Below are positions 1 through 55,062 of a DNA stretch of 64,000 nt, one piece after another (positions within the stretch are counted from its first letter, which is position 1; every line of letters begins with the position of its first letter). The position numbers and the translations under genes were made by a program. A model generated the notes under the pieces. That model saw nothing but the letters and a program-made list of their open reading frames with translations, had not been told where the DNA came from and searched no databases. This stretch comes from Rubeoparvulum massiliense (lineage in GTDB: Bacteria > Bacillota > Bacilli > Rubeoparvulales > Rubeoparvulaceae): positions 186,001 to 250,000 of the forward strand of contig NZ_CVPE01000005.1 in NCBI RefSeq assembly GCF_001049895.1, given 5' to 3'.

Positions 1-428
1 TGTGTGGCGTCACGTTCAGCCAGGTAATCATTCACCGTAACAACATGAACCCCTTTACCTGACAATGCATTAAGATAGGAAGGAAGGGTAGCCACTAAGG
101 TTTTACCTTCCCCAGTCTTCATCTCCGCAATCCGGCCATCATGGAGTACCATACCCCCAAGGATCTGCACATCAAAATGGCGCATACCTAAGACACGGCG
201 AGATGCTTCCCGCACAACCGCATAGGCCTCCACCATCAGCTGGTCCAAATCCTCACCTTGAGCCAAGCGTTGTCTGAATTCCTCCGTCTTCCCGCGCAAC
301 TCGACATCGCTGAGCGCTTGCATGTTCGGCTCTAGGCGATTCACTTCTTCTACTCTTTTCATATACTTCTTAATATCCCGTTCATTACTATCGCCAAAGA
401 TTTTTTTGAAAAAACCCAATTGGGCCAT
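1..428 (-). CDS. secA: Protein translocase ATPase SecA (N-terminal part, cut by window edge)
   Basis: SecA is the motor ATPase that drives preproteins through SecYEG at the membrane. Only the first ~142 residues are present; the gene runs off the left edge. The reading begins [20 protein letters not shown], a typical Bacillales SecA start, and includes the Walker A segment [19 protein letters not shown] followed by [14 protein letters not shown]. The start at 428 is preceded by a GGAAGGAG ribosome site. The gene follows hpf on the same strand, as in Bacillus (hpf-secA), with 288 bases between; a terminator-like hairpin after hpf suggests secA has its own promoter in 429-640, although I could not pick convincing boxes. 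Confidence 0.97.
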
Positions 429-641
429 CTCCTTCCACACATGGCAAACCGCTTGCTTTTCTCTTCACGCCTTAACCAGTAAATATTGCTGCTGCCAATA
501 TTCCCATCATAGATCCAATATTCTTTTCTATATTATCAAGAGATTGAAGTAGTGGCAAATAAAAGTTATTGAAACATTCAACTCCATTCAAGACCAATAG
601 AACCCGATTCTTGGAAGCATAGATAAATCGCAATGATCAGA

Positions 642-716: not shown

Positions 717-1259
717 TTAAACAGTTTCGATTAAACCGTAGCGACCATCCTTACGTTTGTAGACGATATCAACACTATCGCTCTCAGCATTGTTGAAGAC
801 GAAGAAGTTGTGGCCTAACATTTCCATTTGAAGTACAGCCTCTTCCACATCCATGGGTTTCAAGTTGAAGCGCTTGGTACGAACGATTTCGATGTTATCC
901 TCTTCCTCTGCTCGACCATTGCCATTAGTCTCTGTGAAAATATTTTTAATCGTACCGTCTTGACGGAATTTGCGATTAATCTTTGTTTTATGCTTACGAA
1001 TTTGACGCTCCAGTTTATCAACAACTCCATCGATGGAGGCGTACATATCCTTGTCCGTCTCTTCAGCACGAAGAATGACACCTTTAAGAGGGATGGTAAC
1101 TTCTACAGTATGCTCATCACGAACCACTTGAAGGGTTACATGACCCTCAACATTTTGACCTTCAATGTATTTGTCAAGCCGTCCAACCTTTTCCTCTACA
1201 TAGCTGCGAAGAGCTGGCGTTACCTCAATATTCTCACCGCGAATATTATACTTTAACAT
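717..1259 (-). CDS. hpf: Ribosome hibernation promoting factor, long form
   Basis: Long HPF dimerises 70S ribosomes into inactive 100S particles in stationary phase or stress. The protein is 180 residues: an N-terminal ribosome-binding domain (MLKYNIRGENIEVTPALRSY, about residues 1-100), a charged linker, and a C-terminal dimerisation domain (RTKRFNLKPMDVEEAVLQME through GHNFFVFNNAESD). I chose the ATG at 1259 rather than the longer frame because GGAAGGAGGAGG lies just upstream. Position next to secA matches B. subtilis yvyD. The upstream region carries a dense DnaA-box cluster, which is unusual for this gene. Confidence 0.95.
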   Translation of the reverse strand: MLKYNIRGENIEVTPALRSYVEEKVGRLDKYIEGQNVEGHVTLQVVRDEHTVEVTIPLKGVILRAEETDKDMYASIDGVVDKLERQIRKHKTKINRKFRQDGTIKNIFTETNGNGRAEEEDNIEIVRTKRFNLKPMDVEEAVLQMEMLGHNFFVFNNAESDSVDIVYKRKDGRYGLIETV

Positions 1260-1343: not shown

Positions 1344-1473
1344 TTATTCACATATCCCGATCCCCAAACCCCTTTAGCCACAGTTATGCACAGACTTGTC
1401 CACATTATCCACAGAAATCAGTCCATTTTAAGCACACCTTATCCACAGGTTATCCACAAAAAGTTGTGGATAA
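1344..1473. promoter_or_regulatory. Cluster of seven DnaA boxes
   Basis: Three exact TTATCCACA boxes (1405-1413, 1439-1447, 1450-1458), one exact box in reverse orientation (TGTGGATAA, 1465-1473), two matching TTATNCACA (1344-1352, 1384-1392) and a one-mismatch TTGTCCACA (1396-1404) occur in 130 bases. Two boxes abut exactly (1396-1404 and 1405-1413). DnaA binds such 9-mers. No dnaA/dnaN genes or long AT-rich unwinding element are visible, so this is more likely a DnaA-titrating or regulatory cluster than an origin. The following stretch 1474-1700 contains no gene I can support. Confidence 0.8.
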
Positions 1474-1700
1474 GGTTGCATTATCCCAAAACACAAAAAC
1501 CACTTGATCATGAAGAAGCTATCAAGCTTCAAGATGACGAAGTGGTCATGGCTACAGTTGGTATAAGTGGCTTTTCGAGTTCATTTCGAATTCTATTTAA
1601 GGTTGTAAATAGTGAAGAAGGGATATTTCAGCTACGCTGAGGGAAGAAAAGTAATACTAAATACTTGAGAACAAAACGATAGAAATATTCTCGTGTTTAT

Positions 1701-2105
1701 CTATTTTCTCTCATCAAAGAGATATCCCTCTGTCTGATATCCTTCAGCCATTCGTTGTAAACGCTGATGCCGTTGCTTATTCAGCTGGAACTGCTGCGCT
1801 TCACCCTTAATCTTGGCATAGAGCTCCGTGATCAAAGGTTCTGTCTGTTGATGTAATTGAACCAATTGACGGAGGTAGACATGACGTTCATCATCATGCC
1901 CCTTCTCCTCTGCTCGTTCCCCACGCATCAAGGCCAGGATCAGTTCCTGTCGCTCATTAAGCAGAGCTTCAATATATTGAACCCCTTCCAATGAATCATT
2001 AGGATGAGCCGCTAGCTCCGTCTTCACCGCTAGGTAGAGCTTCTCACTAATGGCAAGTAGCTCCTGATAGCGTAGCTTTTCATTCTGGTCATCTCTGTTT
2101 GTCAT
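1701..2105 (-). CDS. FliT-like flagellar protein
   Basis: A 134-residue, mostly helical, charged protein with no membrane segment. It starts 9 bases after fliS, exactly where B. subtilis carries fliT, a small export chaperone for the filament cap protein FliD. Its sequence is rich in Gln/Glu/Leu and predicted coiled coil (ELLAISEKLYLAVKTELA; LVQLHQQTEPLITELYAKI). FliT-type proteins diverge strongly, so the assignment rests mainly on size, composition and position as last gene of the flaG-fliD-fliS operon. Confidence 0.65.
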   Translation of the reverse strand: MTNRDDQNEKLRYQELLAISEKLYLAVKTELAAHPNDSLEGVQYIEALLNERQELILALMRGERAEEKGHDDERHVYLRQLVQLHQQTEPLITELYAKIKGEAQQFQLNKQRHQRLQRMAEGYQTEGYLFDERK

Positions 2106-2114
2106 GAGATCACC

Positions 2115-2516
2115 CTACTTTTCTGAGGATACTGAAGCAGTTGGATGCTTGGCTAGCTTCATCGCCTGCTCCCAGGTCGCTTTAAACTGAATGAGAAATT
2201 CCTCAACTTCATTAAGGATTTCCCCATCCTTCTGAACATTGGCTTCTATCAAACGATTGCGGAGATAATCATATAGTTGGAGCAATTGCTTGGAAAGATC
2301 AACATCCATGTTGAGCGTAACCATGAGTTCATTGATAATATCCTGAGCCCGCACATTGGCCTGATGAGCCTTTTCCAATTCTTTATGTTCTAGAGCCTGC
2401 TTGGACTGGCGGACAAAGCGGATTGCTCCATTATAAAGCATGAGCGTTAACTCTGCTGGCGTAGCGGTAGTAACGGCATTCTGCTGGTAGATCTGCTGTG
2501 GGTTCCTCATCGACAT
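2115..2516 (-). CDS. fliS: Flagellin export chaperone FliS
   Basis: FliS binds flagellin in the cytosol, prevents premature polymerisation and delivers it to the export gate. The 133-residue protein shows the family pattern: NPQQIYQQNAVTTATPAELT near the start, LMLYNGAIRFV, and the AQDIINELMVTLNMD helix, ending in a variable tail. In Bacillus FliS also interacts with FliW/CsrA circuitry because flagellin, FliS and FliW compete for partners. It lies between fliD and the fliT-like gene on one strand. The start at 2516 has a rather distant GGAGT; the next in-frame ATG (2510) is possible. Confidence 0.95.
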   Translation of the reverse strand: MSMRNPQQIYQQNAVTTATPAELTLMLYNGAIRFVRQSKQALEHKELEKAHQANVRAQDIINELMVTLNMDVDLSKQLLQLYDYLRNRLIEANVQKDGEILNEVEEFLIQFKATWEQAMKLAKHPTASVSSEK

Positions 2517-2644: not shown

Positions 2645-4180
2645 TTATTGACCGCCACCAAATTGATTCATCAACCAGCCCGCTTGGGCATTATACTTAC
2701 TTAACGCTTTCTCCATGGCGGTGAATTTCTGCCAGTAGAAGGCTTCTTTCCGTTCTAGGCGTTCTTCAAACACGAAGATCCGTTCGTTCATCTGCTTCAG
2801 TCGCTCGCCAAAGAAGCTTTGGTCCACAAGGACATCATCACTGCCCACTTTTTCTTTAAGACGCTTAAAGCCATCATCGAGGGCATCCTTGAGGCGAGTG
2901 GCCAAGCCTTGCTCACTCTTAATATCACTTTTGTTGGTAAAGAGCTGTACCACAGCATCGGGGTCCTTCTGTAGAGCATCACGTAATTTATCCTCATCGA
3001 TATATAGCTTGTTATCCTTATGATCATACATATTCACAGTGATCCCGATCGAACTGAGATGCTGATACTTGTCGTTATCTACACCTTTGACCGTATCATA
3101 GATGGCATTCCGCATGGCATAGGTAATGTTGGTGAGATCAGCATCGCTTTTCAATAATCCACTCTTTGCCTTGGCTTCCCATTGCTCCTCTTGCTTTTCA
3201 GATAGCTGTTCCCGTTGCGCATCGGTAAGGGGCTTAAAGTTCTTCTCACGTTTTTCAGTTAATTTTCCATCGATTTTTGTAATCACATCGTTATAGGCTT
3301 GAATGAAGGATTTGATCTTTTCCACAGTGCCATCGATATCTTGGGCAACATTGACAGTACTGCTTACGGGATTCCCCTTCGCATCGATTTGCGACACCCC
3401 GTTGAGGGTATAGTTGACATCATTCACCGTAAATTGATTGGTGGCAAAGGTGAAGGCGGTTCCATTGATCTGTACCTTAGCATCTTGACCTGTGGCACTG
3501 CTGGTTGCCAATTGTATTGTTTTCGTAATAAAATCGCTTGTGCCCGCCGTGTCATTGGCTGTCATGGTGATCTGTGCTTCAGAACCTGACTTCGTTTGGT
3601 TAAAGAAGAAACGTTTTAAATTGGGATCGTAGGAGGCTTTCACTCCTGTAGTTTGGCTCTGTCCATTAACAGCAGCAATGAACTGATCAACAGTCATTCC
3701 GCTGGTCACATCAATTTTCACATTTTGATCTGCACCTGCACCATATTGAAGAGTCAATTGAAAAGGCGTAGCTCCTTGATAGATCACTGAGCTTCCATCA
3801 ACGATGGTTTCACCATTTGCACCTGTACTCACTTGACCACTGGTAAGACTCGCATTAGTAGCCAGATTCTCGACGATTACCTGATTGGATGTGGTCACTG
3901 CATTATTACTCGCTGTGGCAGTCACTACAAAGGGGTTAGAGCTGGTAACGGTCCGTGTGGTATATGGTGTAGTGAGGCTCATATCGAAGGCGTGATTACG
4001 TAAGCTGAAGATTTCCCGATTCAGTTCACGGTACATATCCCGTTGCCATTCGACGACAGTCATCTGCTGCTTGAGTCGATCCAATGGAGCACGCTCTGCA
4101 TCCATGAGATCCTTGACCATTTTTTCTGTATCCATACCGGACATTAACCCGGAAACACGATTGGTAGATCCGATTTCCAT
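2645..4180 (-). CDS. fliD: Flagellar filament cap protein FliD
   Basis: FliD (HAP2) forms the cap under which flagellin subunits fold at the filament tip. The 511-residue protein has the conserved start (RVSGLMSGMDTEKMVKDLM, about residues 8-26), a coiled segment near PLDRLKQQMTVVEWQRDMYR, a variable central domain and a conserved C-terminal coiled coil with DQSFFGERLKQMNERIFVFE. Length is normal for Bacillales. An AAAGGAGG site precedes ATG 4180. It sits 25 bases after flaG and 128 before fliS, so it is part of the flaG-fliD-fliS-fliT operon. Confidence 0.97.
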   Translation of the reverse strand: MEIGSTNRVSGLMSGMDTEKMVKDLMDAERAPLDRLKQQMTVVEWQRDMYRELNREIFSLRNHAFDMSLTTPYTTRTVTSSNPFVVTATASNNAVTTSNQVIVENLATNASLTSGQVSTGANGETIVDGSSVIYQGATPFQLTLQYGAGADQNVKIDVTSGMTVDQFIAAVNGQSQTTGVKASYDPNLKRFFFNQTKSGSEAQITMTANDTAGTSDFITKTIQLATSSATGQDAKVQINGTAFTFATNQFTVNDVNYTLNGVSQIDAKGNPVSSTVNVAQDIDGTVEKIKSFIQAYNDVITKIDGKLTEKREKNFKPLTDAQREQLSEKQEEQWEAKAKSGLLKSDADLTNITYAMRNAIYDTVKGVDNDKYQHLSSIGITVNMYDHKDNKLYIDEDKLRDALQKDPDAVVQLFTNKSDIKSEQGLATRLKDALDDGFKRLKEKVGSDDVLVDQSFFGERLKQMNERIFVFEERLERKEAFYWQKFTAMEKALSKYNAQAGWLMNQFGGGQ

Positions 4181-4205: not shown

Positions 4206-4574
4206 TCAGACTTTTTCATCCACTAATAAGCCCATATACTCTTTTAGGCCAGTGATAATATCGAGGAATTTCTCCGGTGGAATTTCGCGGATCACTTCAT
4301 CCGTAACTGCATTCTTCACTTTTACCACGTATTGACCAGATTTCTCATGAAAGACGAACTGGAGCTTGGTGTAGGTGACCTCCAACATCTGATTGAGACC
4401 ATTCACTGCATTTTCCAACTGATTGGCATCGATAGGCTGCTGTGCATGTTGTTCCTGCTGCGTTTGCTGTTCTGTGGAAGACTGGCGCTCATACGGACGA
4501 TTCTCCACAGGCTGAGCTGGCGTAGCTCTACCAATAGGTGAAACAGGGTTACCTCCAACCGATTGAATGGACAT
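4206..4574 (-). CDS. flaG: Flagellar protein FlaG
   Basis: FlaG proteins influence filament length and hook/filament assembly; their exact mechanism is poorly known. The 122-residue protein has a low-complexity Gln-rich N-terminal half (QQTQQEQHAQQ) and the conserved C-terminal FlaG domain (LEVTYTKLQFVFHEKSGQYV, VIREIPPEKFLDIITGLKEY). It is the first gene of the operon with fliD-fliS-fliT, as yvyC is in B. subtilis. A candidate sigma-D promoter lies 40-66 bases upstream. Confidence 0.92.
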   Translation of the reverse strand: MSIQSVGGNPVSPIGRATPAQPVENRPYERQSSTEQQTQQEQHAQQPIDANQLENAVNGLNQMLEVTYTKLQFVFHEKSGQYVVKVKNAVTDEVIREIPPEKFLDIITGLKEYMGLLVDEKV

Positions 4575-5477: not shown

Positions 5478-6623
5478 TTAGCCCAGTACCTCTTTAACAT
5501 CATGAATCACAGCTTGGACATGGGACTCAGTCATTTTGGGGAAAAGCGGAAGTGTTATCATACTTTCATATAAGTTCTCAGCTTGTGGGCATAATCCCTG
5601 TTTGTACCCTAACCGTTGATAATATGGATGAAGATAGACTGGAATGTAATGAACATTGGCACCTATCTTTCTTTCTATCAATCTTTGATAAGCTTCGTCT
5701 CTATTCACACCAATTTTATTTGAATCAATTTGAATGATGTAGAGGTGCCAGCTAGAATGAGAGCTATCTAGCTGATGGGGAAGTATAAGCCCATCAATTC
5801 CTTTGAAAGCCTCGTTGTATTGGTGAGCAATCTCCCGTCTCCGTTTTAAAAATCGGTCTGCCTTTTTTAGTTGACTAAGACCTAAGGCTGCTTGAATATC
5901 GGTCATTCGATAGTTGTATCCTAATTCTATTTGTTCATAATACCAATGGTCCTTGTTTTGATGCAGCATCTTCGGATCTCGAGTTATTCCATGAGAACGG
6001 AATAGCTTAAGTTTTTCATACAATTCATCATTATTTGTTGTAATCATACCACCCTCGCCAGTAGTAATATGCTTAACGGGATGGAAACTAAAGGTGGTCA
6101 TATCAGAGATACTTCCTATCTTTCTTCCCTTATAGTCTGCTCCAATTGCATGGGCAGCATCTTCGATAACGATTAAGTTATATTCTTGCGCAATTTTATA
6201 TATTTCATCCATATCACAAGGTTGTCCAGTGAAGTGAACAGGAATGAGCGCCTTTGTCTTTGAGGTGATATTCTTCCTAATCTCAGATGGCGAGATATTA
6301 TAAGTGATAGGGTCAATATCAGCAAAAACAGGGGTACCTCCACAATATAATACGCAGTTTGCAGATGCAGCAAAGGTGATCGGTGTTGTAATTACCTCAT
6401 CACCTTCTCCGATGCCAGCCGCAAAACAAGCCGCGTGAAGTGCTGCTGTTCCATTCGAAATGGCCACTGCATACTTAGCACCAACATACTTTGCAAATTT
6501 TTTTTCAAATGCTTCAATTGTAGGTCCCGTAGTTAGGTAATCCGAACGTAGTACATCTACTACGGCTTGAATATCTTCCTCATCAACCCACTGACGGCCG
6601 TATGGAATAAATTCATGGTTCAT
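5478..6623 (-). CDS. pseC: UDP-4-amino-4,6-dideoxy-N-acetyl-beta-L-altrosamine transaminase PseC
   Basis: PseC is the PLP-dependent aminotransferase of step 2 of pseudaminic acid synthesis; it aminates the 4-keto sugar made by PseB using glutamate. The 381-residue protein belongs to the DegT/DnrJ/EryC1 family: start IPYGRQWVDEEDIQAVVDVL, AISNGTAALHAACFAAG for cofactor phosphate binding, VIEDAAHAIGADYKG, and the PLP lysine in TFSFHPVKHITTGEGG (about K184). It is the last gene of the pse operon, 3 bases after pseG. Confidence 0.94.
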   Translation of the reverse strand: MNHEFIPYGRQWVDEEDIQAVVDVLRSDYLTTGPTIEAFEKKFAKYVGAKYAVAISNGTAALHAACFAAGIGEGDEVITTPITFAASANCVLYCGGTPVFADIDPITYNISPSEIRKNITSKTKALIPVHFTGQPCDMDEIYKIAQEYNLIVIEDAAHAIGADYKGRKIGSISDMTTFSFHPVKHITTGEGGMITTNNDELYEKLKLFRSHGITRDPKMLHQNKDHWYYEQIELGYNYRMTDIQAALGLSQLKKADRFLKRRREIAHQYNEAFKGIDGLILPHQLDSSHSSWHLYIIQIDSNKIGVNRDEAYQRLIERKIGANVHYIPVYLHPYYQRLGYKQGLCPQAENLYESMITLPLFPKMTESHVQAVIHDVKEVLG

Positions 6624-6626
6624 TAT

Positions 6627-7655
6627 CTACATTCCCTTCTCCAATAAGTGGCTGATTATTTTCTCCACAATTCTTTCTGTTCCTTTACCATCGACCAATG
6701 ACTGCTGCTTTGATACCATCTCCTGTCTTGTAATATAGTCATCCATTAAATGTTTAAGATTATCTATGAGTTGCCGTGAAGAAACTTCAGTGTACCATCC
6801 CATACTCTTGATAAATCCACATTGATCCATCTGTTCCGATATCATTTGCTGATTATCAGCCATAATAAATCCTAATGTTGGTACACCACAAGCACATAAT
6901 TCATACAAGGTACTTCCACTTGATGAAATGGCCAAATCAGCTCGCAACATAAGCTCCGATATTCTTGCGATATTTTTATAGAAATGGATATGATTATCGG
7001 AATTTAATTTTTTCTTTAGCTGCTCATCAAATTGGAAACTATTACCAATTACAACATGTAGACTAATCTCTTTCATCCTTGGCTCACTACGAATCGCCTG
7101 GATGATCCATTCAGTCAAATGATGAGGATCTGATCCGCCAGTGGTGATTAAAATGTCTCGAACAGACTTGTTCACATGGCGCTGCGGAAGTCCTTTAAAT
7201 TCTTCTCTAATCAGGTTATATTGAGGACCTAATAAGAAAACTTGTTCTTCATACAAAGCTTCGTATTTAAGATATTCTCCAGTGATATTACCATTGATAA
7301 TAATATCTACAGGGTATCGATATGCATTCAAATCATCAATATATACAAGAACCTTAGCATATGGTTTTATTGCTAAAAAAAAGGATGGTGTCACCTCATA
7401 ATGATCCACCACCAAAATATCAAATGCCTTCCCTTCCAATTCACTGATTATTGATTTCGCTTCAAACTGATTGGAAGGTAGAGTATAGACTAAATAACCT
7501 TCTTCTCTTACTTTTGCAATACCCTCAGGATATCGACTAAAGAAGGCAACCTGAGCACCATGTCGAGTAAACGCTTTAGCAAGAGACAAAGAACGCATAA
7601 TGTGTCCCATCCCTAGAGTTTGACCACCATCGGCATAGAAGGCAAGTTTATACAT
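6627..7655 (-). CDS. pseG: UDP-2,4-diacylamido-2,4,6-trideoxy-beta-L-altropyranose hydrolase PseG
   Basis: PseG removes UDP from the diacylated intermediate, giving the free sugar for PseI. The 342-residue protein has the GT-B-like fold signature: DGGQTLGMGHIMRSLSLAKA at the N terminus (the GMGH histidine is the family catalytic residue), TTGGSDPHHLTEWII, and SSSGSTLYELCACGVPTLGF. I prefer ATG 7655 over the upstream GTG because the GTG is part of the AGGTGAT ribosome site. Unlike Campylobacter PseG fusions there is no attached acetyltransferase domain. Confidence 0.92.
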   Translation of the reverse strand: MYKLAFYADGGQTLGMGHIMRSLSLAKAFTRHGAQVAFFSRYPEGIAKVREEGYLVYTLPSNQFEAKSIISELEGKAFDILVVDHYEVTPSFFLAIKPYAKVLVYIDDLNAYRYPVDIIINGNITGEYLKYEALYEEQVFLLGPQYNLIREEFKGLPQRHVNKSVRDILITTGGSDPHHLTEWIIQAIRSEPRMKEISLHVVIGNSFQFDEQLKKKLNSDNHIHFYKNIARISELMLRADLAISSSGSTLYELCACGVPTLGFIMADNQQMISEQMDQCGFIKSMGWYTEVSSRQLIDNLKHLMDDYITRQEMVSKQQSLVDGKGTERIVEKIISHLLEKGM

Positions 7656-7672
7656 ATTGATCACCTATTACT

Positions 7673-8308
7673 CTATTCGTTTTCTTTGTGGATTTTCAAA
7701 ATATACTTATAACCATCTTTGATAAAAAAAAGTGGGTATCGTTCATTATCTGAAATTCGCATTAGATTAAATTGCTCCGCGATTGATTTATTGGGATCTA
7801 ACTCACTATCCATGGGAGTCCTACGTGGGTAAAAACTTTCCTCGCCTTCTTGTTTGTCACCTTCTACTGGGAAATTTTCTACGTACCACATTGCCATTTC
7901 AATAATTTTTTGGGCCATCTTTTCTCTAAGCTCATCCAATAGCTCATGACCCTCATAGAAGACAATGTCTTTCTTGTAAATTGGCCCACTATCCACTTTC
8001 CCAACAGCTTCAAACATCGTGAGATAAACTTCATTTTTCCCCTCAAGTATCTGCCAAGGCATCGGAGACCACCCCTTACCTTGTGGTAGATTACTAGCAT
8101 GAATCACAATATTGCTTCGATGAAGCTCTAATAGATGCCGTGGGCATATTTGGGTACAACTTAGAAAGAAAGCGATATCCCCCGATTGTAATTCAGTTAA
8201 TTCATTAATAAAGATTGACTCATGTTTATCTTGTAATAACGTAGACAGCTGTTTTGCATAGGGTATAAACCAGCTATTCTTCGAATCAACAATGACACTA
8301 ATCCTCAT
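7673..8308 (-). CDS. Formyltransferase-like protein in the Pse cluster
   Basis: A 211-residue protein of the formyltransferase N-terminal superfamily (10-formyl-THF-dependent). The signature is NIVIHASNLPQGKGWSPMPW followed by a downstream KVDSGPIY aspartate motif. In Met-tRNA formyltransferases the motif reads N-x-H; here the position two before His is Val and the Asn lies four before it, typical of a distinct WSP-type subfamily seen near nonulosonic acid genes. It lies between pseI and pseG, exactly where PseH (N-acetyltransferase) would be expected, and no PseH is visible. I infer it formylates the 4-amino group, giving a 7-N-formyl pseudaminic acid. A free-standing hydroxyarginine/amine formylase is the alternative. 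Confidence 0.8.
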   Translation of the reverse strand: MRISVIVDSKNSWFIPYAKQLSTLLQDKHESIFINELTELQSGDIAFFLSCTQICPRHLLELHRSNIVIHASNLPQGKGWSPMPWQILEGKNEVYLTMFEAVGKVDSGPIYKKDIVFYEGHELLDELREKMAQKIIEMAMWYVENFPVEGDKQEGEESFYPRRTPMDSELDPNKSIAEQFNLMRISDNERYPLFFIKDGYKYILKIHKENE

Positions 8309-8330
8309 GAAATATCACTTCACTTTCACT

Positions 8331-9380
8331 TTAATCAGAAATCATTGTCCACCTTAGAGGGGTTCCACATTCAATCGATTTTGAAGCTCGTTTTCCGATG
8401 ATCTCTTCGTAAAATTTTGGTGTCAAACCTTCACCTGGTCTGATCACTCGGATATTCTCTTTTGTAAATATTTCACCTTCTTGTATATCTTGAACGACAA
8501 AGATAGACTTTCGAAAAATCATACTTTTTTCTTCATTTGGTGAAATCTCGTAGCTTACTTTTCCCATTGCACGTTCTGCAGAGCGAATATCTTGAACCAT
8601 TTTTTTAAATTCATGAGGTTCCATCGAGAATGAAGCATCTGGATTTTCGATTTCTCTACTTAGACATAGATGCTTCTCAATCACACTAGCACCCATGGCA
8701 ACTGCAGTTACTGCTGCAATCGAACCCATCGAATGATCCGATAGTCCTACAGGGACATTAAATATTTCTGCCATATTCCTAATTGTACGCAAATTCATAT
8801 CTTCAGGTATTGCTGGATAGGAACTTGAACATTTTAAAAGGCATAGTTGGTCATTGCCTTGAGATCGAACTGCCTTCACTGCTTCTTCGATTTCTCCCAA
8901 TGTTCCCATGCCAGTAGACATAATAATTGGTTTACCTTTTGAAGCTACATATTTTATTAAAGGAGTATCAACTAACTCAAAGGAGGCAATTTTATAGAAT
9001 TCCACACCTAACTCTTCTAAAAAATCTACCGCTGTAAAATCAAAAGGAGTAGAAAAAAAATGAATGCCTACTTTATTGGCTTCCTCCATTAGTTGGCCTT
9101 GCCAATCCCATGGCGTGTATGCTTTACCATATAATTGGTAAAGATTTTTCCCTCGCCATAATCCTTCTTTTATCTGAAAAGGAGGTTTGTTGGAATTGAT
9201 AGTGATGGTATCTGGCGTGTATGTTTGGATCTTAATGCAATTAGCACCACTCTCTTTAGCCACATGAACTAACTCAATCGCTTTCTGGATATCGCCAGCA
9301 TGATTGCCTGACATCTCTGCAATAATGTATGCTGGATAACCTTCTCCAATATGCCTATCGATTATCGTTATATCTTTCAT
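8331..9380 (-). CDS. pseI: Pseudaminic acid synthase PseI
   Basis: PseI condenses the trideoxy-altrose with phosphoenolpyruvate to form pseudaminic acid. The protein is 349 residues: a NeuB-type TIM barrel (AYIIAEMSGNHAGDIQKAIE, CIKIQTYTPDTITI, FYKIASFELVDTPLIKYVAS, MSTGMGTLGEIEEAV, VGLSDHSMGSIAAVTAVAMG, EKHLCLSREIENPDASFSM) and a C-terminal SAF/antifreeze-like domain (RKSIFVVQDIQEGEIFTKEN). The ATG at 9380 is the start because the upstream in-frame ATG overlaps the AAGGAGG site. Third gene of the operon. Confidence 0.95.
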   Translation of the reverse strand: MKDITIIDRHIGEGYPAYIIAEMSGNHAGDIQKAIELVHVAKESGANCIKIQTYTPDTITINSNKPPFQIKEGLWRGKNLYQLYGKAYTPWDWQGQLMEEANKVGIHFFSTPFDFTAVDFLEELGVEFYKIASFELVDTPLIKYVASKGKPIIMSTGMGTLGEIEEAVKAVRSQGNDQLCLLKCSSSYPAIPEDMNLRTIRNMAEIFNVPVGLSDHSMGSIAAVTAVAMGASVIEKHLCLSREIENPDASFSMEPHEFKKMVQDIRSAERAMGKVSYEISPNEEKSMIFRKSIFVVQDIQEGEIFTKENIRVIRPGEGLTPKFYEEIIGKRASKSIECGTPLRWTMISD

Positions 9381-9406
9381 GTTATACCTCCTTATCACTT
9401 TATCTG

Positions 9407-10144
9407 CTACTTAACCTTCTTCTGTTCAATATGTGCATTGATTTTTATCAATTCGGGATGTTCACTGAATACTTTTAAAATATCATTATAATAAAAATCA
9501 TGTTTCCCGTTATATAGATAAAGATATACCGCTTGAATTAAGCGAAAATCTTCTTCCGTATCCAGTGTCCAACGATATTGAGAGTTGTTCTTTTCATCTT
9601 GGTAGTAATAGATTTTGTCACTCTTCTCATAAATATAGGGAGTTACATGTTCTCTATGATAAGGGGCATGTCCATTAAGATATGCTTCTTTCAAAGCTTG
9701 ATAAGAGAAGACTTCTGTATCCAATCCTCGTGGATAAGTTCGTTTTGATAAGTCTATACCTGCATTGGTGACCATTTCGTAATCATGGCTCTTATAAAAC
9801 TGAACTAACTGATCAATTATCAATGGATCTATTAATGGGCAGTCAGAAGTAATTCGTACAATCACATCCGCATGATACTTCGTTGCAGCTTCATAATATC
9901 GAGACAGAACATTCTCTTCGCTACCTCGGTAGATTTCTACTCCGTATTCTATTGCTGCTTTGGCAATGACATCATCTTGTGTAAAGGTTGTAGTCGCAAT
10001 CACAATCTGATCGAACCCATATGCTTGCTTCACACGTTCAATTACATGATGGAGAATTGTCTTACCATCGATTTTCATCATAACTTTTCCTGGTAAACGA
10101 GTGGAACCCATTCGCGCTTGAATAATTGCTATTACTTTTCCCAT
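9407..10144 (-). CDS. pseF: CMP-pseudaminic acid cytidylyltransferase-like protein (SpsF type)
   Basis: A 245-residue nucleotidyltransferase of the CTP_transf_3 family: start VIAIIQARMGSTRLPGKVMM, IVIATTTFTQDDVIA, RGSEENVLSRYYEAA, VIVRITSDCPLIDPLIID and a C-terminal RWTLDTEEDF. In context it should activate pseudaminic acid to CMP-Pse for the glycosyltransferase. The sequence resembles Bacillus SpsF (spore coat sugar) more than Campylobacter PseF, so the gene symbol rests on cluster position. Lies between pseB and pseI with short gaps. Confidence 0.85.
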   Translation of the reverse strand: MGKVIAIIQARMGSTRLPGKVMMKIDGKTILHHVIERVKQAYGFDQIVIATTTFTQDDVIAKAAIEYGVEIYRGSEENVLSRYYEAATKYHADVIVRITSDCPLIDPLIIDQLVQFYKSHDYEMVTNAGIDLSKRTYPRGLDTEVFSYQALKEAYLNGHAPYHREHVTPYIYEKSDKIYYYQDEKNNSQYRWTLDTEEDFRLIQAVYLYLYNGKHDFYYNDILKVFSEHPELIKINAHIEQKKVK

Positions 10145-10167
10145 GATGACACCCTTCTTGTCTTTAT

Positions 10168-11202
10168 TTAAACTCCAATAGTATTGTCAGCATGCACATC
10201 ATCCATAGCTATAACTCGCTCATGTAATTGTTCTACCGATAGCCAGTCTGTGTTTGTTCCTGAATTATACTCAAACCCTTCTTCGATCAATTGACCACCT
10301 GGTGTAAGGTATTTTCGTACATTCCACCAATCAAAGTGAGGGTAGATAATATAATGTTTGTCGTACTCATAAGTATTGCGAGAATCATCCCTGGGAACCA
10401 TGACCTCATGGAGCTTTTCCCCTTCACGAATTCCTACCTCTTTTAATATTGAATCGGGAGCCATAGCACGGGCTAAGTCAACAATTCTAAAAGATGGGAT
10501 TTTTGAGATATATGTTTCTCCACCCTTTGACTCTTCCAAAGCCTTGAATACTAACTCTACTCCTTCTTCTAATGTGATCCAAAAACGTGTCATTCGGTAA
10601 TCTGTGATTGGCAATTCTTTTGATCCTTGGTCAATTAAACTTTGAAAGAAGGGAATTACAGAGCCTCTACTTCCCGCAACATTTCCATAACGAACTACTG
10701 AGAAAATAGTCCCTGCTTGTCCAGAGTACGCATTGGCAGATATAAATAATTTATCTGAAACTAGTTTTGTTCCACCATATAGGTTAATCGGATTCACTGC
10801 TTTATCAGTTGATAGGGCTACAACCTTCTTCACACCACGATCTAACGAAGCATCAATCACATTTTGAGCACCATGAATATTAGTCTTGATCGCTTCAAAT
10901 GGATTGTACTCACAAGCTGGAACTTGTTTCATCGCAGCAGCATGGATTACATAGTCTACATCCTTAAAGGCACGATATAGACGCTCTTTATCTCGCACAT
11001 CCCCTATAAAAAAGCGAAGCTTCTTGAACTGATCAGAAGATAATTTTTGTGCAAACATGTTTTTCACAAGAAATTGTTTATACTCATCGCGGGAGTAAAT
11101 GATAACTCTGCGAGGATTATATCGTTCAAAGATCATTTCAGTGAATTTTTTTCCAAAGGATCCTGTGCCACCAGTGATAAGGATTGATGCATTATTTAGC
11201 AA
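10168..11202 (-). CDS. pseB: UDP-GlcNAc 4,6-dehydratase (5-inverting) PseB
   Basis: PseB catalyses step 1 of pseudaminic acid synthesis, converting UDP-GlcNAc to the 4-keto-6-deoxy-L-arabino sugar. The 344-residue SDR protein shows ILITGGTGSFGKKFTEMIFE (NADP-binding), FIGDVRDKERLYRAF, HAAAMKQVPACEYNPFEA, ALSTDKAVNPINLYGGTKLV with the Y-xxx-K pair, and VRYGNVAGSRGSVIPFF. Start is a TTG at 11202 with GGTAGGTG seven bases upstream. First gene of the pse operon; the 112 bases between it and the Maf gene may hold its promoter or be read through from it. Confidence 0.95.
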   Translation of the reverse strand: MLNNASILITGGTGSFGKKFTEMIFERYNPRRVIIYSRDEYKQFLVKNMFAQKLSSDQFKKLRFFIGDVRDKERLYRAFKDVDYVIHAAAMKQVPACEYNPFEAIKTNIHGAQNVIDASLDRGVKKVVALSTDKAVNPINLYGGTKLVSDKLFISANAYSGQAGTIFSVVRYGNVAGSRGSVIPFFQSLIDQGSKELPITDYRMTRFWITLEEGVELVFKALEESKGGETYISKIPSFRIVDLARAMAPDSILKEVGIREGEKLHEVMVPRDDSRNTYEYDKHYIIYPHFDWWNVRKYLTPGGQLIEEGFEYNSGTNTDWLSVEQLHERVIAMDDVHADNTIGV

Positions 11203-53550: not shown

Positions 53551-55062
53551 TTATAGTGGCTCTAGCACATGCTCCCCATAGTAGCTAATCACACTCTTGG
53601 TCTCCATATAGAGATCCAGCGCTTCTAAGCTCAACTCCCGGCCAATACCTGATTCCTTAAATCCGCCAAAGGGAGAACCAGGAAATGCCGAGAAGGGAGA
53701 ATTGACCATCACCGTTCCTGCTTGTAGCCCTTTGGCCATCCGTATTGCCCGCCCCTGATTTCCTGTCCAAACAGAGGCAGCAAGGCCATAGGAAGTATCA
53801 TTGGCTAGCTGTAGCGCCTCCGCCTCATCTTTGAACGGCATGACCACAAGGACGGGACCGAAAATCTCCTCTCGTACCACACGCATGGATGGTTGTACGT
53901 TTCCGATGATGGTAGGTGCATACCAATAACCACCCTCATAGCTTTCCACAGCTTGCTCCTTGCCACCTAATAAGAGGGTTGCTCCTTCCTCAAGGGCAGA
54001 GGTGACATAGCCATGGATCGTCTCCAGCTGTTGGCGACTAATAATGGCACCCATCTGCGTCTTGCGGTCGAATGGATCGCCAAAGCGTAAGCCCTTTGCC
54101 CGTTCAACGAAGGTTTCCACAAAATCCTCGTAGATCGTCGACTCCACCAGCAGGCGGGAACGGGCTTCACATGATTGACCTGCATTGTAAAAGATCCCGT
54201 AGAGAGCAGCATGGAGTGCACCATTCCAATCTGCATCAGCGAAGATAATGTTCGGTGATTTCCCACCTAGCTCCAAGGTGACTCGCTTCAAGGTGCTCGC
54301 AGCTTGAGCCATAATCGTCTTTCCTGTGGCAGTCTCCCCGGTGAAAGCCACCTTATCCACATCCGAATGATGAACCAGTGCCTGCCCTACGCTTTGACCC
54401 GGTCCTGTCACCACGTTGAAAACGCCGGGTGGTACACCTGCCTCATGGGCGATCTCCGCCAGCATCAAGGCGGTAAGTGGTGTCAGACTGGCTGGCTTTA
54501 AGATAATTGAGCAGCCTGCAGCCAGGGCTGGCGCCACCTTCCAGGCTGCCATCATCAGTGGATAATTCCATGGAACGATTTGCCCACACACCCCGACGGG
54601 CTCCTTCTCTGTATAGTTAAAAAAGCCTGGTGGCATCTGATTGACATGACCACGTTGGGTAGCAATGGCCGCTGCGAAAAATTCAAAGTTCTCGATGGCT
54701 TGAGCCACCTGCCCCTTTGCCGCTCCGATGGTTTTTCCGGTATTGAGAACCTCCATTTCGACTAGTTGATTAAAACGTTCACGCATCTTGGTGGCAATCG
54801 TTGAGAGAACACGTGCCCGCTTATTTACAGGCATCTGTCTCCACACCCCGGAGGTGAAGGCTTGACGAGCTGCAACCACCGCCTGCTCTACATCACGCTC
54901 ATCCCCTTGAGCGACACGAGCCAATGCCCTCCCTGTGGCAGGATTAAGAATGGTGGTATACTCTTCGCTATTACTAGCCACGGCCTTTCCTCCGATCCAC
55001 ATGGGATAGAGTGGTTGTGTTCCCTCCTGATGAGCTTGCCAAGATAATGCTTCCATACTCAT
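53551..55062 (-). CDS. Aldehyde dehydrogenase in the phenylacetate operon
   Basis: 503-residue NAD(P)-dependent aldehyde dehydrogenase: QIVPWNYPLMMAAWKVAPAL, FTGETATGKTIMAQAASTLK, VTLELGGKSPNIIFADADW (Glu), FYNAGQSCEARSRLLVE (Cys) and GPVLVVMPFKDEAEALQLAN. Two roles fit: oxidising phenylacetaldehyde to phenylacetate (FeaB/PadA-like), completing a Phe-to-phenylacetate route, or oxidising the ring-cleavage semialdehyde, the job of the PaaZ dehydrogenase half. No PaaZ is in the window, which favours neither decisively. ATG 55062 with GAGGAG upstream. Confidence 0.88.
   Translation of the reverse strand: MSMEALSWQAHQEGTQPLYPMWIGGKAVASNSEEYTTILNPATGRALARVAQGDERDVEQAVVAARQAFTSGVWRQMPVNKRARVLSTIATKMRERFNQLVEMEVLNTGKTIGAAKGQVAQAIENFEFFAAAIATQRGHVNQMPPGFFNYTEKEPVGVCGQIVPWNYPLMMAAWKVAPALAAGCSIILKPASLTPLTALMLAEIAHEAGVPPGVFNVVTGPGQSVGQALVHHSDVDKVAFTGETATGKTIMAQAASTLKRVTLELGGKSPNIIFADADWNGALHAALYGIFYNAGQSCEARSRLLVESTIYEDFVETFVERAKGLRFGDPFDRKTQMGAIISRQQLETIHGYVTSALEEGATLLLGGKEQAVESYEGGYWYAPTIIGNVQPSMRVVREEIFGPVLVVMPFKDEAEALQLANDTSYGLAASVWTGNQGRAIRMAKGLQAGTVMVNSPFSAFPGSPFGGFKESGIGRELSLEALDLYMETKSVISYYGEHVLEPL

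Follow-up and report, generated by a model that had tools for sequence, protein, structure and literature searches.

A conserved, oriC-proximal DnaA-box cluster between fliT and hpf in Rubeoparvulum massiliense, probably of the DnaA-titrating kind

The DnaA-box cluster considered here lies in an intergenic region of the R. massiliense chromosome, near the start of a 64,000-nucleotide stretch of DNA (C5:186001-250000 of the genome) that we analysed as a whole and refer to as the window. The local gene order is flaG-fliD-fliS-fliT-cluster-hpf-secA, with every gene on the minus strand. The flagellar side consists of flaG (4206..4574), fliD (2645..4180), fliS (2115..2516), and a fliT-like flagellar chaperone gene (1701..2105), which was assigned by position and length and had no Pfam match. 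On the other side are hpf (717..1259), coding for the long form of the ribosome hibernation promoting factor with both the S30AE and the C-terminal domain present, and the N-terminal part of secA (1..440; L037:862-3441). The cluster begins 85 bp upstream of the hpf ATG (1259) and ends 228 bp past the fliT stop. Between it and fliT is a terminator-like hairpin followed by TTTTTGTGTTTT (1498..1547, minus strand; z = -4.5), which was not called by a strict consensus scan. This hairpin would end the flagellar (fliT) transcript, and it sets the cluster apart from the flagellar operon. Also beside the flagellar genes, at 5478-11202 of the window, are genes that by sequence impression code for a NeuB-like synthase, a cytidylyltransferase, an aminotransferase, and a UDP-sugar dehydratase; this sugar-modification set likely serves flagellin glycosylation with pseudaminic or legionaminic acid.

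A scan of the window identified eight 9-mers at 1344-1473 that match TTATCCACA with at most one mismatch, four of them exactly. Seven are on the plus strand and the last (1465) is on the minus strand. The first two boxes, TTATTCACA (1344..1352, plus) and TTAGCCACA (1374..1382, plus), carry one mismatch each. They are followed by a three-box module, TTATGCACA-GAC-TTGTCCACA-TTATCCACA (1384..1413, plus), that exactly matches a pattern common to other families. Its boxes are arranged head to tail with starts 12 and 9 bases apart: TTATGCACA at 1384..1392 and TTGTCCACA at 1396..1404, each with one mismatch, and an exact TTATCCACA at 1405..1413 that abuts the second box. Three further exact copies of TTATCCACA complete the cluster, at 1439..1447 (plus), at 1450..1458 (plus, after a 2-base gap), and at 1465..1473 (minus), the last being the inverted partner of 1450-1458. 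A previous sequence-only reading of this DNA had counted seven boxes; its four exact copies and the abutting pair at 1396 and 1405 are as described, while the count rises to eight.

Only one other exact box occurs in the window, at 54353. Across the whole genome (2.84 Mb in six contigs) there are 61 exact boxes, compared to 18 occurrences of a reversed control word. At the observed box density, four exact boxes within 130 bp are expected 2e-7 times per genome (this figure and the genome-wide cluster statistics come from box listings), so the density that had been noticed from the letters alone is beyond chance at the scale of the genome. The three-box module is present as a single copy in R. 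massiliense, even when two mismatches are allowed. The GC content of the cluster is 41 per cent vs 44 per cent for the window, which leaves little AT excess, and an RNA family search found no riboswitch or other RNA family at the cluster.

The nearest dnaA is on the same contig, at C5:546.3 kb, 359 kb from the cluster or 12.6 per cent of the genome. It is surrounded by jag, trmE, rnpA, dnaN, and recF, with boxes flanking dnaA on both sides, and a DnaA-trio run, TACTACTAC, follows an overlapping box pair between dnaA and dnaN (L041 about 9384). By these boxes and DnaA-trios, the dnaA region is the bona fide oriC. A trio scan of the hpf-side cluster found no such run there. Given the distance to dnaA, the cluster is outside the origin but oriC-proximal, and the original observation that no origin genes are nearby extends to the DNA just outside the window.

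Several other clusters are present in this genome. Among the box matches listed, there is one at C4:241481-241575, just 3' of gcp/tsaD, and one at C5:398969-399141, between spoIIR and ywlC; an exact box is also found between jag and trmE, upstream of trmE. The gcp/ydiF, ywlC, and trmE/jag regions are among the strongest DnaA-binding regions of Bacillus subtilis (PMC4447404). R. massiliense thus retains clusters of the B. subtilis type and possesses an additional one at hpf. A separate group of seven boxes, three of them exact, was observed at C3:486893-487011 (L038:4894-5012). It follows an OmpR-type response regulator/sensor kinase pair and precedes a thioredoxin-reductase-like gene. Clusters near a similar regulator/kinase pair occur in G016 (L241) and in B. 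subtilis DE0224 (L236:4418-4583).

The three-box module is widespread in the Bacilli. With its consensus, TTATNCACA-N3-TTRTCCACA-TTATCCACA, head to tail and with starts 12 and 9 bases apart, it was found in 153 of 400 Bacilli genomes at up to two mismatches, while the reversed pattern was found in none of the 400. When pairs of exact boxes were searched for independently, gaps of 0, 2, or 3 bases made up 69 of the 150 pairs listed and gaps of 5-10 bases six of the 150. These preferred gaps match those within the hpf-side cluster, such as the gap of 2 between 1439 and 1450.

Reading the individual loci revealed two main addresses for the module, one 3' of gcp and the other upstream of hpf. The hpf address is used in 55 genomes from 11 families, at 125 to 7308 bp upstream of hpf and on the strand opposite to hpf in all 55. 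It is also used in Chengkuizengella and in a twelfth family, f32 (L219). Among a spread of further relatives, G018 and G039 have a cluster with the same three-box module upstream of hpf. Conservation of the arrangement in relatives, which the sequence-only reading had proposed to check, is thus borne out, though not in every group: B. subtilis, Listeria, and lactobacilli have no module upstream of hpf in the loci compared, the B. subtilis hpf locus has no upstream boxes at all, and among 80 hpf loci drawn mainly from Bacillus-like genera, Listeria, and lactobacilli, only Chengkuizengella marina has an upstream cluster. The gcp address comprises about 19 loci in many families, and here the module is always on the strand opposite to gcp. 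Most genomes have one module; members of f54 have one at gcp and another at hpf. Clade f16 g42 carries the module to either side of dnaA, so that each half of oriC contains a copy, at G391:C1:1396-1498 (dnaA-dnaN, L242) and at G391:C1:3209246.

The two addresses are related by their position on the chromosome. In 12 measurements, hpf-type modules were located at -4.7 to -14.1 per cent of the genome from dnaA and gcp-type modules at +5.3 to +16.8 per cent, which places the two sites on opposite arms of the chromosomes measured, both of them oriC-proximal. Transcription of hpf and of gcp runs away from oriC, and the module boxes at both sites, being on the opposite strand, therefore point toward it. 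G250 has hpf and its module about 361 kb from dnaA on the other arm, their relative orientation unchanged. Isolated boxes left of oriC on the R. massiliense contig have a mild strand bias (9 vs 5), compared to 55 of 55 for the module at hpf, but TTATCCACA is C-rich, words of that composition should be commoner on that strand, and the bias of isolated boxes may add to the orientation signal.

In L192 (G023:C6), two copies of the module are upstream of hpf, about 2 kb apart (4447-4554 and 6422-6509); both contain TTGTCCACA variants, and neither cluster has an exact consensus box. In L183, L190, L191, and L198-L201, a further TTGTNCACA-like box, absent from the window, follows the abutting pair after 5 bases. 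As many hpf-type modules carry this extra box, the full hpf-type array may consist of four or five fixed boxes.

The interpretation we favor, with a probability of about two in three, is that the hpf-side stretch is an oriC-proximal DnaA-box cluster of the kind known from B. subtilis and that it titrates DnaA. The same precisely spaced sites recur at the same place in many relatives, and so the cluster is probably a decoy that soaks up DnaA and delays replication. DnaA would bind the head-to-tail module cooperatively, probably best as ATP-DnaA, and the flanking boxes would enlarge the complex. The cluster would be duplicated soon after initiation, and DnaA held there would leave less free DnaA for oriC, helping to prevent early re-initiation. 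The gcp and ywlC clusters of R. massiliense would share in this task.

Occupancy by DnaA, preference for the ATP form, and titration at the hpf-side cluster are all inferred from B. subtilis, where deletion of six such clusters causes early initiation (PMC5295017, PMC13220808) and where ATP-DnaA at 55 nM binds the gcp region 16-fold better than ADP-DnaA does (PMC4447404). The identical geometry of the module suggests that the hpf copy would behave like the gcp region, and this deeply conserved cluster probably titrates (ATP-)DnaA. The effect in B. subtilis requires the loss of all six clusters, and one review rates their role as small (PMC5295017). What appears as titration might just as well be ATP hydrolysis, nucleotide exchange, or chromosome organisation. 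The proposal that this is an initiation-limiting cluster of the B. subtilis type gains from the box features, oriC proximity, conservation, and sibling loci; the specific ribosome-hibernation link that had been attached to it finds no support.

A more specific alternative, which we hold only tentatively and think fairly unlikely, is that TTATNCACA-N3-TTRTCCACA-TTATCCACA is a dedicated DnaA-regulatory module. Its strict geometry would build a defined ATP-DnaA complex with an activity of its own, housed at one of two sites near oriC, gcp on one arm or the fliT-hpf interval on the other, and B. subtilis would be a derived case that lost the hpf site.

The idea that DnaA here mainly regulates transcription of hpf (or of whichever gene is next), coupling replication state to ribosome hibernation, now seems unlikely. 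The boxes are about 85-200 bp upstream of hpf in R. massiliense, f19, f32, and Chengkuizengella, and B. subtilis clusters do regulate neighbors such as ywlC, vpr, and trmE (PMC4447404; PMC8203912). Across families, however, the cluster stays within the fliT-to-hpf interval while the next downstream gene varies. In R. massiliense it is hpf; in f8, f18, f22, and f23 the place is taken by an operon for an amino-acid ABC transporter or by some other gene; and f17, f30, and f31 have other genes there. In most families the module is 1-7 kb from hpf with genes in between, with hpf more than 7 kb away at the extreme, and Bacillus and Listeria retain hpf without the cluster. Furthermore, the gcp-site module is downstream of genes, often between convergent ones. 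With other genes, often those of the ABC transporter, between module and hpf in many families, and with the gcp copy downstream of genes, dedicated control of hpf is unlikely, and the coupling to growth arrest suggested by the sequence-only reading found no support. We accordingly set aside an hpf-specific operator, which is unlikely and which the varying gene neighbors do not support. A promoter scan of the cluster locus found no convincing hpf promoter overlapping the boxes. A local effect on hpf may still occur in R. massiliense, where the boxes start 85 bp from the start codon.

We consider it improbable that the module goes beyond mere sequestration and actively changes the nucleotide state of DnaA, as a functional counterpart of datA or DARS. 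Such an activity is favored by the spacing and orientation, which are fixed at two alternative sites in many families and are more tightly constrained than a plain sink would require. On the other hand, box I of DARS is opposite to boxes II and III (PMC5742627) while the module boxes all point one way, a difference in geometry that rules out a DARS-like core, and B. subtilis has no homologues of IHF and Hda (PMC13220808).

A cryptic or secondary replication origin is very improbable: the same module is beside dnaA in one clade (f16 g42), but the boxes and TACTACTAC trio run are at the dnaA oriC, and the hpf-side cluster, with little AT excess, no DnaA-trio run, and no origin genes, can be ruled out as a second origin. 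Chance or a compositional artefact is scarcely credible given the 2e-7 expectation, the conservation across families, and the absence of the reversed pattern, and a dispersed repeat is ruled out by the single copy of the module in the genome.

In the open-access literature searched, we found no description of DnaA boxes with hpf or yvyD. The cluster is thus a known kind of element at an address, fliT-hpf, for which we found no description in that literature, and its most interesting part is the fixed module common to gcp, hpf, and some origins. To our knowledge, how DnaA is restrained in Bacilli, without Hda, SeqA, datA, or DARS, is only partly understood. The role of the B. subtilis clusters is disputed, and the hpf/gcp module bears on this question: that about 12 families retain a module with such strict spacing, at either of two sites near oriC, argues for strong selection on such clusters. 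The module also provides an exact sequence to mutate or transplant, and it allows DnaA sites to be predicted in many genomes purely from their sequence.

Among known systems, E. coli datA is also a cluster of DnaA boxes in non-coding DNA away from oriC and, as proposed for the hpf-side cluster, holds initiation back; it acts by IHF-dependent stimulation of DnaA-ATP hydrolysis. datA requires IHF, which is absent in B. subtilis (PMC13220808). E. coli DARS1 and DARS2 likewise have a three-box core with fixed spacing, but their box I faces the other way from II and III (PMC5742627), unlike the head-to-tail boxes of the hpf-side module. Compared to the oriC of Bacilli, the hpf-side cluster has the same box consensus, and in one clade copies of the module flank dnaA; the hpf-side cluster differs in having neither the DnaA-trio unwinding element nor dnaA/dnaN. 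The closest likeness is to the extra-oriC DnaA-box clusters (DBCs) of B. subtilis, reportedly described by Okumura in 2012 and by Smith and Grossman in 2015. Like these, the hpf-side stretch has several intergenic boxes beyond chance and is conserved, outside oriC yet oriC-proximal. It is not at a B. subtilis DBC address, its place not being among the ten strongest DnaA-binding regions of that species (PMC4447404), but the kind is defined by boxes and DnaA binding rather than by address. The resemblance is above all to the gcp-ydiF cluster: although the hpf-side cluster is on the other arm, it carries the same 12/9-spaced three-box module as the gcp cluster of many Bacilli.
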